From a virus, in the IMG/VR virus record IMGVR_UViG_3300036864_000123, positions 1 to 21,073 of that record: a DNA stretch of 21,073 bases; one strand, given 5' to 3'. This document shows, piece after piece, positions 8,008-21,073 of this stretch (positions are counted from its first letter, which is position 1; the number at the start of each line of letters is the position of its first letter). The position numbers and the translations under genes are program-made. Under the pieces are notes generated by a model. That model did no database searches. It worked only from the letters and a program-made list of their open reading frames with translations, and was not told the DNA's origin.

Positions 8008-8615
8008 TGGGCGACGGCACGAAGAGGCACTTCGCCGAGTTGCTGAAGTCCGCCAAACTGCCGGAGCGCAGCGTTCCCGTCTGCCTGCGCGGCGACCTAC
8101 GCGCCGAATACGAAGAGATGCAGCGGCAACTAAAGCAGGCGCGGCAGCAGAACGCGCACAGCAAGGAAGACGGCGACACCAGCCAACTGACTGAGCGCAT
8201 CGAAGCCATCCAGGCCGAGATGCAGGACAGCACCTACCCGTTCATCCTTCGTGCCCTGCCGAAGCCCAAGTGGCGCCGGCTCGTCAACGAGCACCAGCCC
8301 CGCAAGGGCGAGAACGACCAGGTCATCGAGTCCGACAGCATGGGCTTCAACGTTGACACGTTCTACCCGGCGGCGATCCGGGCGTGCACCGTCGACCCAG
8401 TACTGGACGAGGACGAGTGGCGGGAACTGCTCGGCGACACCGACGGTGAACGGGAGCGGCGCGAGGCTGAGGGCCTGCCGGTCGAGGAAGGCAAGCTGAC
8501 CGACCGGCAGTTCAGCGAACTGGGGCTCGCCGCATTCCTGCTGAACGCGGGAGAGATCAGCGTCCCTTTCTCGCCCGCCGGATTGGTCGAGAGTCCGGAT
8601 TCCGACAGCGAGTAG
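8007..8615 (+). CDS. Tail assembly chaperone, short form (gpG-like), 202 aa
   Basis: Starts at the TGATG overlap with the leader ORF. The protein is highly charged and mostly helical. It has 'EYEEMQRQLKQARQQN' and 'TERIEAIQAEMQ' coiled-coil stretches (residues 30-75), then 'FILRALPKPKWRRLVNEH', a segment typical of actinophage tail chaperones, and an acidic C-terminus. The gene lies between the tail tube and tape measure genes, the standard place for lambda G/T-type chaperones that keep the tape measure soluble during tail assembly. A slippery heptamer 45 nt before the stop yields a longer form. An in-frame GTG at 7974 is a possible alternative start. Confidence 0.82.
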   Translation: MGDGTKRHFAELLKSAKLPERSVPVCLRGDLRAEYEEMQRQLKQARQQNAHSKEDGDTSQLTERIEAIQAEMQDSTYPFILRALPKPKWRRLVNEHQPRKGENDQVIESDSMGFNVDTFYPAAIRACTVDPVLDEDEWRELLGDTDGERERREAEGLPVEEGKLTDRQFSELGLAAFLLNAGEISVPFSPAGLVESPDSDSE

Positions 8616-8980
8616 AGACCGCGGACCGGCTCGGCATCCCGGGTTCGCAGCTCGATGGCCGCGAGCCGATCACGGTCACCGAGCACGAGTACGACCGTGG
8701 GCGGCTGGTCCGGTCGGTCACGACGACGGAGCCGCGGTGGACGGAGCAGGATCGGGCTGAGGCGTTGGCGCTGGCCGTGTACCGCCAGTCGCTGTGCCCG
8801 GGTGGCTGCGGCCAGCCGGTCGCTGAGTCCACGGCCCACTGGGAGGTGGGCCCCGCCTATGAGGCGAAGTCGACGACCTGCCGGGCGTGCTCGGAACTGC
8901 ATGAGGCGCAGCGCGGCAAGGCGGAACGCACCTCGGACCCATCGGCGGTCCTCTGGCACCTGGTCAAGACGCAGGGTTGA
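8007..8980 (+). CDS. Tail assembly chaperone, frameshifted long form (gpGT-like), about 324 aa
   Basis: Made by -1 frameshifting at CCCTTTC: codons to 8570, then 8570-8980. The junction reads ...ISVPF-LARRIG... The extension of 136 residues has 'ETADRLGIPGSQLDGREP', 'HEYDRGRLVRSVTTTEPRWT' and 'EQDRAEALALAVYRQSLCP', a pattern well known in the second frame of actinophage tail chaperones. It ends with a likely zinc-binding region, C-P-G-G-C-G followed about 30 residues later by C-R-A-C. There is no good independent start with a Shine-Dalgarno in this frame before that conserved block, which supports frameshifting. The long form links tape measure and tail tube subunits during assembly. Confidence 0.82.
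8564..8570 (+). promoter_or_regulatory. -1 ribosomal frameshift site CCCTTTC
   Basis: The heptamer reads C_CCT_TTC in the chaperone frame, a perfect X_XXY_YYZ slippery site. Slipping by -1 keeps Pro-Phe pairing (CCC, TTT) and continues in the frame that is open to 8980. The downstream frame has clear protein character (see the fusion product), which would be lost without a shift. Position near the end of the upstream gene is the same as in known tail chaperones. Confidence 0.85.
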
Positions 8981-8981
8981 G

Positions 8982-9242
8982 CTAGTAAGTGAAGCTGTGG
9001 ATCAGGGCGAGGGCCAGGGCGAGGGCGGCGAGGACCAGTCCGGCGACTGCTATGCCGCCGCCAGCACGTCCGCGCTTGATGTCGGTACGGGCAACGATGC
9101 CGCAGATCAGGGCGACGAGGCCGAGGAAACCCATGCCGGTAATAACGGCGTAGGGCAGGGCGAGGATCCCGAGCACCAGCGATGCGACGGCCCAGCCGCT
9201 GGTCTTGGGCGTGGTGATCCGATCCGTGGTCTGCGGGGTCAT
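8982..9242 (-). CDS. DUF4190-like two-helix membrane protein, 86 aa
   Basis: Encoded opposite to the late operon, between the tail chaperone and tape measure genes. After a polar N-terminus (residues 1-15) come 'SGWAVASLVLGILAL' and two membrane helices (about 17-36 and 62-82). The loop between reads 'GFLGLVALICGIVARTDIKR' followed by G-R-A-G-G-G-I-A-V-A-G-L, the layout of DUF4190 proteins common in actinobacteria. No Shine-Dalgarno is seen before the ATG; a TTGCGG-17 nt-CACACT element ends 6 nt upstream, suggesting a leaderless transcript of its own. Orientation, place and family fit a 'moron' expressed in the lysogen. Its membrane role is unknown; superinfection exclusion is one possibility. 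Confidence 0.8.
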   Translation of the reverse strand: MTPQTTDRITTPKTSGWAVASLVLGILALPYAVITGMGFLGLVALICGIVARTDIKRGRAGGGIAVAGLVLAALALALALIHSFTY

Positions 9243-9248
9243 GCCCGA

Positions 9249-9277
9249 AGTGTGAACAATCTGCAGCGTCGCCGCAA
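9249..9277 (-). promoter_or_regulatory. Candidate leaderless promoter of the DUF4190-like gene
   Basis: On the minus strand, TTGCGG (9277-9272) and CACACT (9254-9249) are separated by 17 nt, and the ATG begins 6 nt after the -10 hexamer. The -35 matches sigma-70-type consensus at TTG; the -10 matches only partly (A at 2, T at 6). The spacing to the ATG fits initiation at or next to the A of ATG. Confidence 0.4.
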
Positions 9278-9317
9278 CGCTGTGTCCCGCATTTGTCTGA
9301 ACGGACAGGGGTGAGCG

Positions 9318-14731: not shown

Positions 14732-15760
14732 ATGACACAGTCCCCCGAGTATCCGGACCTGCGCTGGATGCCGCCCGCCAGCTGGACGAACGCGAACCGG
14801 ACGAGCGTGCAGCTGATCGTCATCCACACCACCGAGGGCAGCGAAGGCCCGAGCTCGGCGGAGGACGGCGCCGCGTACGACCAGCGCCGCACCGACGGCA
14901 CTAGCACGCACTTCTTCCACGACTCCGACTCGACCGTCCAGTGTGTGCGCACCGAGGACATCGCGCACGCCGCCCGGCATGAAGGGAACCTGCGCGGCAT
15001 CCAGCACGAGCTGTGCGGCAGCGCCTACCAGGGCAGCGTCGGCTGGGCCGATTCGGTCAGTCAGGGCACGCTGCGGCAGGCGGCCCGGCAGTGCGCCCGG
15101 GACGCGAAGAAGTGGGGCATCCCGGTGCGGAAGCTCACCGTCGCCCAGGTCGCCGACGGGGTGAAGGGCTTCTGCGGGCATGTCGAGATCACCTACGCGT
15201 TCCCGCAGGACAACGGCACGCATACTGATCCCGGTCCGACGTTTCCGTGGGCCGACTTCCTGGACATGGTCCAGACTGAACTGGAGGTAGGCGGCATGGC
15301 AGAAGTCGATCTGACCGATGCGGCGGTACAGAAGATCGCCAGCAAGATCAGTGCGGACCTGAACAACACGACATCGGGCATCGCCCTGGGCACTGTCGCC
15401 CGTAGCCGCGCCGCCGTGCAGGACTTCTTCGCGGACGCGTTCCACGCCGCGAAGAAGAACCCCGATAGCAGCCTGGGTGACAGCGTCTACCAAGCGGCCA
15501 GCACGGGTGAGCAGCAGGTGATGCGCTACGCCAGGGACATCGTGCAAGGAACTGTCGGCGGACCGGTCAGCCAGGCCGACCTCGTCGCGGCCGTCACCGC
15601 GGCGAAGGATGAGACCCTGGCGGCTGTCGCGAATGTCGACGAGGAAGTGTGGGCGAAGGTGCCCGACCCGAACATCACGGTCGCGGAGAAGGCCGACCTG
15701 CTGCGGGCCGTGCTCGGCGACGACGCGGCTGCGGTCGGTGCGCTGCTCGCCGCGGGCTGA
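14732..15760 (+). CDS. Endolysin, N-acetylmuramoyl-L-alanine amidase (Amidase_2), 342 aa
   Basis: ATG preceded by GAAGGG. Residues about 20-185 form an Amidase_2/PGRP-type domain: 'LIVIHTTEG' with H32, 'STHFFHDSDSTVQCV', 'GFCGHVEIT' with H150, and 'THTDPGPTFPW' with H164 and D166. By comparison with T7 lysozyme, H32, H150 and D166 are the expected zinc ligands. It cuts the bond between muramic acid and the stem peptide to free progeny phage. Residues about 195-340 are a helical, charged C-terminal part ('VDLTDAAVQKIASKI', 'EKADLLRAVLGDD') that is probably for dimerisation or wall targeting; I see no LysM or SH3 domain. There is no signal peptide, so release needs a holin. Confidence 0.92.
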   Translation: MTQSPEYPDLRWMPPASWTNANRTSVQLIVIHTTEGSEGPSSAEDGAAYDQRRTDGTSTHFFHDSDSTVQCVRTEDIAHAARHEGNLRGIQHELCGSAYQGSVGWADSVSQGTLRQAARQCARDAKKWGIPVRKLTVAQVADGVKGFCGHVEITYAFPQDNGTHTDPGPTFPWADFLDMVQTELEVGGMAEVDLTDAAVQKIASKISADLNNTTSGIALGTVARSRAAVQDFFADAFHAAKKNPDSSLGDSVYQAASTGEQQVMRYARDIVQGTVGGPVSQADLVAAVTAAKDETLAAVANVDEEVWAKVPDPNITVAEKADLLRAVLGDDAAAVGALLAAG

Positions 15761-18058: not shown

Positions 18059-18074
18059 CAGAGCTAGGCATAGA

Positions 18075-18102
18075 GCGGCCCCTGACTTCGGTCAGGGGCC
18101 GC
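18075..18102. terminator. 12-bp hairpin with TTCG tetraloop
   Basis: Stem GCGGCCCCTGAC / GTCAGGGGCCGC with a TTCG loop, flanked by a T-rich TTCTTT on the plus-strand side. It is typical of actinobacterial terminators with poor U-tracts. It could stop minus-strand transcripts from the HTH gene before they enter the MSIWSS gene, or act on the plus strand. Confidence 0.65.
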
Positions 18103-18119
18103 TTCTTTGCGTCTAGGTT

Positions 18120-18174
18120 GCTGGGCGGCGGCCCGGATTCGAACCGGAAACCCATGCCGTTCTCGCCGCCCAGC
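18120..18174 (-). other. tRNA T-arm/acceptor-like minihelix
   Basis: An 11-bp inverted repeat (GCTGGGCGGCG at 18120-18130, complement at 18164-18174) encloses a T-arm-like element. On the minus strand this reads CCGG-TTCGAAT-CCGG, the T-loop consensus. A full tRNA is not there: no D-arm or anticodon arm fits, and the span is only 55 nt. It may be a remnant of a tRNA 3' end (an att-like core) or a terminator for the HTH gene, which ends 27 nt away. Confidence 0.5.
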
Positions 18175-18201: not shown

Positions 18202-18405
18202 CTACTCCTTGTCCGGCTCGGCGATCTCCGGCCGGTGCTCTCTGATCCACTGCTCGACGTCGGTGGAGCGCCACACCCGGCCGATGCTCAGTACCCGCCA
18301 CGGGTCCGGGAAGTCCTTGCGGCCGATGATGATGTAGGCACGCTGGCGGGACACGTCGAGGCGTTTCCGGATCTCTTCCGGTCCCATCGGCTCCAACTCG
18401 GCCAT
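18202..18405 (-). CDS. AlpA/excisionase-like helix-turn-helix protein, 67 aa
   Basis: ATG 18405 is preferred over an in-frame TTG at 18414, which would lie inside the -10-like TATCTT. The protein has the winged HTH pattern of AlpA/Xis proteins: 'EEIRKRLDVSRQRAYIII', then 'DFPDPWRVLSIGRVWRSTDV' and 'EQWIREHRPE'. These small DNA-binding proteins act as recombination directionality factors with tyrosine integrases or as regulators. An integrase is encoded 2.3 kb away on the same strand, so a role in excision is reasonable but not proven. It lacks a Shine-Dalgarno. Confidence 0.8.
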   Translation of the reverse strand: MAELEPMGPEEIRKRLDVSRQRAYIIIGRKDFPDPWRVLSIGRVWRSTDVEQWIREHRPEIAEPDKE

Positions 18406-18412
18406 ACCCAAC

Positions 18413-18418
18413 AAGATA
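18413..18418 (-). promoter_or_regulatory. -10-like hexamer TATCTT, leaderless start of HTH gene
   Basis: TATCTT on the minus strand ends 7 nt before the ATG. There is no Shine-Dalgarno between, and no clear -35. Confidence 0.42.
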
Positions 18419-19326: not shown

Positions 19327-19938
19327 CTATATCCCCTCCTTCTCCACGCTGATGACCTTCACGGTCACCTTGGTCTTGGAGCTCCTGGTCGACAGGTTCT
19401 CCTCGTTGATGTCGTACTTGCCGTCGGTGATCTCGAAGCTGCCGATGATCGGGCCGGCCTCGTCCCCGGTGATCTGGTAGGTGACCTGCCAAGTCTCATC
19501 GGGATTCGGCTCCGGCACGCCCGGCTTGCGTTTCGCCCGGACCTCGACGGTGAGGTTGCATCCGGCAGATCCGAAGCACTGCTTCTCGGTGGTCTTCAGG
19601 GTCAGCGTCATGTCGGCTGCGGTGATGGCCCGGCCGGTCGTGGGCGGCTCGGTTGTCGGCTCGGCGGCGGGTGTCTCGTCGAGTTGCCGCTGCTGGTCTT
19701 CGGCGTTGCTCCCGGTCGGTGTGGACGTGCGCGGGGTTCCGCTCTGCGCGCCGAGGGCGATCCCGATGATCGTGGCGATCAGGATGAACAGGCCGATGGC
19801 AGCGAAGAGGATCGGCCACAGCCGCCGCTTCTTTGCGGATGCGGGCGGTGATTGTTCACTCTGCGGCATCGGCGGCCAGTGGGTCGGGGGCTGGGGTGGT
19901 CCGGGCACGTTGGGCGTCCGGGGGTCGTGGTAGGTCAT
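19327..19938 (-). CDS. Membrane-anchored extracellular protein, 203 aa
   Basis: ATG with AGGAAGG 7 nt upstream. The N-terminus is Pro-rich and cytoplasmic (residues 1-35), then 'KKRR' and one membrane helix (41-63). An extracellular Thr/Pro-rich stalk (68-104) follows, and a beta domain (105-203) containing C121-F-G-S-A-G-C127, probably disulfide-bonded, and ending in strands 'TKVTVKVISVEK'. This resembles surface lipoprotein-like Ig or DUF4352-type domains in actinobacteria, but I cannot name the family. It is encoded opposite to late genes near the integrase, so lysogen expression and a surface role (receptor masking, exclusion) are likely ideas. Confidence 0.75.
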   Translation of the reverse strand: MTYHDPRTPNVPGPPQPPTHWPPMPQSEQSPPASAKKRRLWPILFAAIGLFILIATIIGIALGAQSGTPRTSTPTGSNAEDQQRQLDETPAAEPTTEPPTTGRAITAADMTLTLKTTEKQCFGSAGCNLTVEVRAKRKPGVPEPNPDETWQVTYQITGDEAGPIIGSFEITDGKYDINEENLSTRSSKTKVTVKVISVEKEGI

Positions 19939-20000
19939 GGTCGTGCCTTCCTGTGTGGGTGGGGGTCGGACGCTCGCCCGCAGTGTGAGCGAGCAGTGGT

Positions 20001-20054
20001 GATCTAGCAACTGTGTGTCGTTGATCTGGCACGGTCGGGTGATACGGATCTGGC
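20001..20054 (+). repeat. Three GATCT(A/G)GC direct repeats
   Basis: Copies at 20001-20008, 20023-20030 and 20047-20054. The first two agree at 9 of 10 bases over TGATCT(A/G)GCA. Spacings are 22 and 24 bp, about two helical turns, so bound proteins would sit on one DNA face. Confidence 0.6.
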
Positions 20055-20076
20055 GATCAGGTGAATGAACTAAACC

Positions 20077-20094
20077 GTTGGCTTCAAAGCCAAC
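20077..20094. promoter_or_regulatory. Small inverted repeat GTTGGCT-TCAA-AGCCAAC
   Basis: Seven perfect base pairs with a 4-nt spacer in an AT-richer stretch, between the two repeat arrays. It may be an operator or a short RNA hairpin. There is no T-run. Confidence 0.55.
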
Positions 20095-20101
20095 ACTCTT
20101 A

Positions 20102-20134
20102 ACAGCGGGTTCACAGGCCCGTTACAGGCGGGTT
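20102..20134 (+). repeat. Three 11-bp-phased ACAG repeats
   Basis: ACAGCGGGTT, ACAGGCCCGTT and ACAGGCGGGTT begin at 20102, 20113 and 20124, an exact 11-bp period. They fit side-by-side binding sites for a small DNA-binding protein such as a Xis-type HTH or repressor. Confidence 0.55.
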
Positions 20135-20186
20135 AACTCGACGGTCTCGCGGCCACTTCTGATCACCCACCAAGAAGGGGACCCAC

Positions 20187-20495
20187 ATGACCAGGGCCAT
20201 CGTCTTCGTGCCACCCGTCGCCCACATGTTCATGTACGCCGACCAGTGCTACGAGCACGCCGCCGCGAGGCACTACGACGTTGAAAGCTTCGTCATGGGC
20301 AACTGGCGCCAGGCAGCCGAGATCCTCCAGGCCGGCCTCGCCGACGTCCTGCTGTACGCCCGGGACGAACACCTCGACCCGCACCGCAAGCCCCGCATCG
20401 AACGGGCCACACCGGACCTGCCGACGCTGCAGCCGGACGTGCAGGAGGTGTCCAGGTCGATGCTGCGACGCCGCCGCCCCAACCAGATCGGCTAG
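20187..20495 (+). CDS. Small phage protein, 102 aa, unknown function
   Basis: ATG with AAGGGG about 6 nt upstream. The product has alternating strand-helix segments: 'TRAIVFVPPVAHMFMYADQC', 'HYDVESFVMGNWRQAAEILQ', 'GLADVLLYARDEHLDP', then a basic tail 'RSMLRRRRPNQIG'. The 'ADVLLYARDEHLDP...PRIE' segment recalls the small resolvase-fold proteins found in actinobacterial mobile elements, but no catalytic serine is evident, so I would not call it a recombinase. It stands opposite the integrase and shares its CTAG stop with the minus-strand gene. Regulation of lysogeny is possible. Confidence 0.62.
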   Translation: MTRAIVFVPPVAHMFMYADQCYEHAAARHYDVESFVMGNWRQAAEILQAGLADVLLYARDEHLDPHRKPRIERATPDLPTLQPDVQEVSRSMLRRRRPNQIG

Positions 20496-20647
20496 TCCGG
20501 CGGGTCGCCCTCGCCGCCGAGACGGCGCCACAGCCATCGCTCGAACCGCGGCTTCGCCATGGTGAATATCCAGTGGAGCAGAAGCGACCACAGTGTCACG
20601 GCGGCGACGGCCGCCAGGATCACCAGCACAATTGCTAGATAGTCCAT
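20492..20647 (-). CDS. 51-aa single-helix membrane protein downstream of integrase
   Basis: ATG with GGGAGG 8 nt upstream on the minus strand, 36 nt after the integrase stop. The peptide begins MDYLAIVLVILAAVAAVTLW and continues SLLLHWIFTM, one long membrane helix (about residues 3-28). A basic amphipathic part 'AKPRFERWLWRRLGG' and an acidic end follow. It is clearly protein-like but too short for usual ORF cut-offs. Co-transcription with the integrase suggests expression in the lysogen or on entry. The function is unknown. Confidence 0.62.
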   Translation of the reverse strand: MDYLAIVLVILAAVAAVTLWSLLLHWIFTMAKPRFERWLWRRLGGEGDPPD

Positions 20648-20683
20648 GTTCACAGCCTCCCTCACGCCGCCGCTCTACTGACA

Positions 20684-21073
20684 TCACGCCACCGCCGGCA
20701 GACCGGCCACCGCGGTGCGCTTACGCGTCGTCCTGGTCGCCACGTACCGCTGCGTCGTGGCGACCGACGCGTGACCCAGCAGCTCCTGCACCACCCGCAT
20801 GTCCTCGCCGGACGCCTCGTACGCGGCGGTCCCGAACCAACGCCGCAGCTTGTGCATGCTCAACTCCGGCTGCCCCAGCACCTTCTGCAACTGCCAGTTC
20901 CCCTGATGCGAAACCTGCTGCCGGGTCAGCCCGCCGGCGACCAGATTGACCGGACGACCGCGGACGTCATGGACAGGCTCAAACACCGGAGGCAACTGCA
21001 CCGACTGCCAGATCAACGGATGCGTGGGCACAATCCGGGACTTGCCGCCCTTGCCCAATATCCACAACTCGTC
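20684..21073 (-). CDS. int: Tyrosine integrase, C-terminal catalytic part (5' partial)
   Basis: The frame is open to the right edge, so the N-terminal arm-binding and core-binding parts and the first catalytic Arg lie outside. Visible are the beta-hairpin Lys in 'GKGGKSRIVPTHP', box II in 'MHKLRRWFGTAAYEA' (H-x-x-R), 'VVQELLGHASVATTQRYVA' with the GH and the nucleophile Tyr, and a basic tail 'TRTTRKRTAVAGL'. This is the phage integrase family that joins phage and host att sites. The transcript runs toward the small membrane gene. The attachment site is not identified; candidates are discussed in the findings. Confidence 0.93.
   Translation of the reverse strand, partial: DELWILGKGGKSRIVPTHPLIWQSVQLPPVFEPVHDVRGRPVNLVAGGLTRQQVSHQGNWQLQKVLGQPELSMHKLRRWFGTAAYEASGEDMRVVQELLGHASVATTQRYVATRTTRKRTAVAGLPAVA

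Follow-up and report, generated by a model that had tools for sequence, protein, structure and literature searches.

The locus studied here raises the question of whether a short non-coding segment rich in repeats, with the lysis genes of a phage to one side and its integrase gene to the other, serves gene expression, immunity or integration. The DNA analysed (called here the window) comes from IMG/VR as a virus record; its 21,073 bases carry tail genes, an amidase endolysin gene (14732-15760), small genes and, at the right edge, the C-terminal portion of a tyrosine integrase gene (20684-21073, minus strand) whose upstream end is outside the window. The segment at 19939-20186 is intergenic and parts two divergent genes: a leftward gene encoding a membrane-anchored protein of 203 aa (19327-19938, minus strand), with a transmembrane segment at about residues 42-61 and a beta-rich exported domain, and a rightward gene encoding a protein of 102 aa with an alpha/beta model (20187-20495, plus strand). 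A ribosome site is found at each gene start, GGAAGG before the leftward ATG and AAGAAGGGGA before the rightward ATG. The preliminary description, drawn from the letters of the window, had pointed to a repressor operator or to an attachment site with arm-type elements. Our analysis suggests instead that the segment is probably the divergent promoter/operator of a temperate actinobacterial phage, driving the membrane-anchored exported protein leftward and the 102-aa protein rightward. It thus corrects the attachment-site reading and marks a probable control point of prophage-type cargo in an uncultured actinobacterial phage group.

Repeats of the divergent segment and their conservation

The segment was compared with that of four IMG/VR relatives (L002-L005), found via the 102-aa protein (88-94% protein identity). 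The preliminary description had reported two repeat arrays with an inverted repeat between them, and the layout is as claimed, all elements lying in one non-coding, divergent 248-bp segment. Three copies of GATCT(A/G)GC, spaced by 22 and 24 bp, are found on the plus strand: GATCTAGC at 20001-20008 and GATCTGGC at 20023-20030 and again at 20047-20054. The first two are kept in all five phages, and the third is lost in L005, which reads GAACTGAC. Three of the four copies of this motif in the window (21 kb, both strands) are inside the segment. The ACAG units recur at an exact 11-bp period (20102, 20113 and 20124) and, read in register, are part of a longer 11-bp direct repeat at 20099-20142 (plus strand) with four units, TTAACAGCGGG, TTCACAGGCCC, GTTACAGGCGG and GTTAACTCGAC, the fourth being a half-unit, GTTAAC at 20132, that had been missed. 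Both arrays had been called helically phased, a term that suits the ACAG array but not the GATCT copies, whose spacing (22 and 24 bp) matches two helical turns only approximately.

The inverted repeat between the arrays, GTTGGCT-TCAA-AGCCAAC at 20077-20094, forms a hairpin of -6.6 kcal/mol as DNA (z -4.1) that, in the window, resembles a minus-strand terminator; a conserved terminator was rejected, as the T-rich tail is present in the window only. A second inverted repeat, GCTCGC..GCGAGC at 19970-19994 (minus strand), had escaped the first reading and is a predicted RNA hairpin of the leftward leader (z -3.2 for this leader of 97 nt). Two further candidates were discarded, namely a T-arm-like reading of GCGGGTTCACAGGCCCG, whose stem is broken in the relatives, and an upstream TTG start of the leftward ORF at 20010, whose frame is not kept in L003.

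The intergenic region could be aligned across its whole length in all four relatives, and some parts are more conserved than others. Among the five phages, 72 of the 76 columns are invariant at 19958-20033, 17 of 27 at 20034-20060, 8 of 26 at 20071-20096, where the hairpin lies, 41 of 46 in the 11-bp array (20097-20142) and all 23 at 20143-20165. The first block, which holds GATCT copies 1 and 2, probably serves the leftward gene as 5' leader and/or promoter, read on the minus strand; since the five phages are close relatives, its near invariance tells little on which bases matter. The 44-bp array has four variable columns, all of them in spacers (p ~0.013 by simple column counting), and its TTnACAG-type cores do not vary among the five phages. 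The hairpin sequence itself is not kept, its position in the relatives being taken by a smaller inverted repeat, GCCTT..AAGGC. In every phage record, each array is present as a single copy. In L002 (4835-5806), a leftward gene of 66 codons, encoding a protein of 66 aa upstream of a Lipoprotein_Ltp gene, is inserted within the conserved control region just after GATCT copy 2 and sets copy 3 apart.

That the segment is a regulatory region is thus well supported, as it is conserved, divergent, non-coding and present in one copy per phage, with repeat cores spared from substitution. Searched as a DNA pattern in IMG/VR, the GATCT block returned the same four phages and chance matches only. A loose TTnACAG pattern gave 65 stretches in the same collection and, among the GC-rich ones that were read, extended similarity was seen in the known relatives only.

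A probable two-way promoter and its exchanged leftward product

A two-way promoter, ordinary in kind, is the most likely function of the segment, with the promoter and the binding to it both putative. A possible rightward promoter, TTCACA-17-TTAACT at 20110-20138 (plus strand), overlaps the 11-bp repeat; it was recognised by eye as a weak consensus match, and a strict sigma-70 scan of the segment found no site. The 11-bp repeat would be part of this rightward promoter and/or a head-to-tail site of a small winged-helix HTH protein, and GATCT copies 1 and 2 would be part of the leftward leader or promoter. The product of the gene at 18202-18414 (minus strand; PHROG class excisionase and transcriptional regulator) is the best candidate binder of the array that we could infer: homologues occur in all four relatives, and the helix SxQRAYxIIGR is kept across the five phages. 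Lambda Xis and BldC are small winged-helix HTH proteins with head-to-tail DNA sites. The phages studied here resemble these systems by their direct repeats with a one-turn period and in that every phage encodes a small HTH protein of the excisionase/regulator class; they differ by the motif sequence, and binding to the array is putative.

Both flanking genes may be expressed in the lysogen. The lysogen of mycobacteriophage Sbash expresses the genes at the corresponding place from operons that run leftward and rightward (PMC6426596), and in cluster N phages a central membrane protein is expressed and defends (PMC9262239). The likeness extends to the genome place, the central lysogeny-expressed region of those phages being prophage cargo between the lysis genes and int/rep (PMC6426596, PMC9262239), to the mixture of small leftward and rightward operons with variable cargo and membrane proteins, and to the repressor and integrase on the right. 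By contrast, the whole region compared here has no DNA match among GenBank phages except in int, and its expression in the lysogen is proposed by analogy. The 102-aa protein gave no Pfam, PHROG or PADLOC match, its fold search returned unspecific matches and it was absent from the plasmids searched.

The opening codons of the leftward gene are similar in all five phages (MTY.DPRTPN.. or close). Behind them, the proteins of the window, L003 and L004 continue with a transmembrane segment and then a beta-rich domain bearing CFGSxGCN, that of L002 has two Lipoprotein_Ltp repeats (PF07553, E 1.4e-31) and that of L005 another, third domain, so that three different exported domains follow a common control region and gene start. 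The model of the window protein, of low confidence, comprises a helix at 42-61 and six strands; the fold search made with it gave unspecific matches. Ltp proteins, a family of lipoproteins on the host surface, have been linked to superinfection exclusion (PMC3952083). L002 resembles the system of TP-J34 Ltp, from a Streptococcus thermophilus phage (PF07553, PMC3952083), by its two Ltp repeats and carries them under the control region shared by the five phages, whereas the window protein has another exported domain with no Pfam match above the cut-off, Ltp being found in L002 only of the five. By analogy, the window protein may be phage-excluding, and the leftward product would then be of the superinfection-exclusion type. 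If the leftward genes do encode exclusion proteins, the near-constant control region (about 80 bases) would provide a handle for finding more of them in metagenomes. A fuller version of the promoter reading, in which a conserved two-way promoter cassette is bound by the small excisionase-like HTH protein on the head-to-tail 11-bp repeat and surface-exclusion proteins are swapped by recombination at the shared gene start, is conceivable and rather unlikely to hold in all its parts.

Promoter hexamers, chance and the immunity repressor

The 11-bp repeat might also reflect overlapping promoter hexamers only (TTAACA/TTCACA with TTACAG/TTAACT), the periodicity serving no regulator. We regard this as a real, if less probable, possibility; it is compatible with the divergent-promoter reading, so that the confidences given to the two are not exclusive. 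The pair TTCACA-17-TTAACT lies about 50 bp before the start codon of the 102-aa gene, itself provided with a good ribosome site, and the variable columns of the array fall in the 17-bp spacer and upstream, none of them in the hexamers. Against it, the -10 hexamer is weak, the strict scan finds no promoter and four units in register exceed what a promoter needs.

That the repeats arose by chance, in a region conserved through recent common descent only, appears unlikely. Triples of similar 8-mers within 60 bp occurred in 12% of the dinucleotide shuffles, and 58% of 248-bp windows of the real sequence contained one; the GATCT triplet, whose third copy is not kept, is therefore weak when taken alone. 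In the same direction, when lags of 10-12 are allowed, 40% of 248-bp windows reach the self-match score of the segment. On the other hand, at lag 11 no stretch of the window has a higher self-match than 20092-20111, one 4-mer present three times at exactly 11 bp was obtained in none of 400 shuffles (1.75% for a period of 10-12), and the 21 kb contain two such exact triples. Moreover, the array cores were spared while their spacers changed, and the neighbouring stretch at 20071-20096 diverged in the same phages.

The proposal of a repressor operator, in which the arrays would be bound by the phage immunity repressor, fared poorly and is quite improbable. It is normal for a repressor to have sites at a distance from its own gene, the repressor of BPs binding to five dispersed intergenic regions (PMC4557955). 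Nevertheless, the repressors of L002-L005 (PHROG repressors at 8615-9109 in L003 and 8116-8568 in L002) differ in their N-terminal HTH part and the repressor/early-gene intervals differ from one another, while the arrays are the same. Neither motif occurs in these intervals in L002-L005, the window's own repressor and interval being outside the contig; given the dispersed sites of BPs, this absence is evidence rather than proof. The words shared by the intervals and the segment were not above control in three of the four relatives (L002, L003 and L005), and the match in L004 overlaps a coding-sequence start. Furthermore, there is one array per phage record, and the motifs are not found elsewhere in the phages.

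The attachment-site reading and the integrases

It is very improbable that the segment is the phage attachment site, with the repeats as arm-type sites of the integrase and the hairpin near the core, since the relatives' integrases are arm-less, the repeats do not adjoin int and no tRNA-like core is present. This reading drew on the integrase gene within 0.6 kb of the segment, on the presence of a small excisionase-like HTH gene and on the resemblance of the short 11-bp repeats to the paired arm sites that phage L5 has. The arm domain was assessed by proxy in the relatives, the N-terminus of the window integrase lying beyond the contig end. Their full-length integrases, of 269 aa, have as PDB matches Xer recombinases and 'Gp33' (5vfz), which we take to be the Brujita integrase; they align to these with no N-terminal extension, so that an arm-binding domain would find no room at that end. 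Among the closest known systems are the integration-dependent immunity of BPs (cluster G) and the arm-less integrase of the Brujita type; our phages differ by further ORFs between repressor and int, and no tRNA-like core was found in the repressor gene here. Arm-less simple integrases need the core only and act without arm sites (PMC9262239; PMC8138268).

The position of the segment also disagrees with an attachment site, as it is parted from int by the 102-aa gene and a variable stretch, with further ORFs in some phages. The hairpin stretch, which would be the possible core, is the least conserved part of the segment. Within 19900-20700 there is no tRNA-like sequence; a non-tRNA core is possible, as scans of genome contigs, made with alignments of the 102-aa protein and of the integrase, turned up neither a relative nor an integrated copy, and hence no host genome. 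A sequence like a tRNA 3' end sits elsewhere in the window, at 18121-18171.

The latter belongs to a stretch at 18070-18171 (minus strand) in which a T-arm- and acceptor-like sequence, TTTCCGGTTCGAATCCGGGCCGCCGCCCA, is followed by a strong terminator hairpin. It lies just downstream of the excisionase-like HTH gene, is absent from L002-L005 and is possibly an attP core or a tRNA relic. Between the 102-aa gene and int, the stretch at 20487-20671, which contains a membrane-type ORF of 57 aa, is missing from both L003 and L005, while L004 has a longer version of it; this marks a small mosaic boundary. Finally, in another phage record, L031, a sequence resembling a tRNA-Thr(TGT) in its 3' half (8197-8262) is fused to 43 codons of an integrase like that of the relatives and adjoins a different, full tyrosine integrase (8293-9303); this is likely the attP of L031 and an integrase swap.
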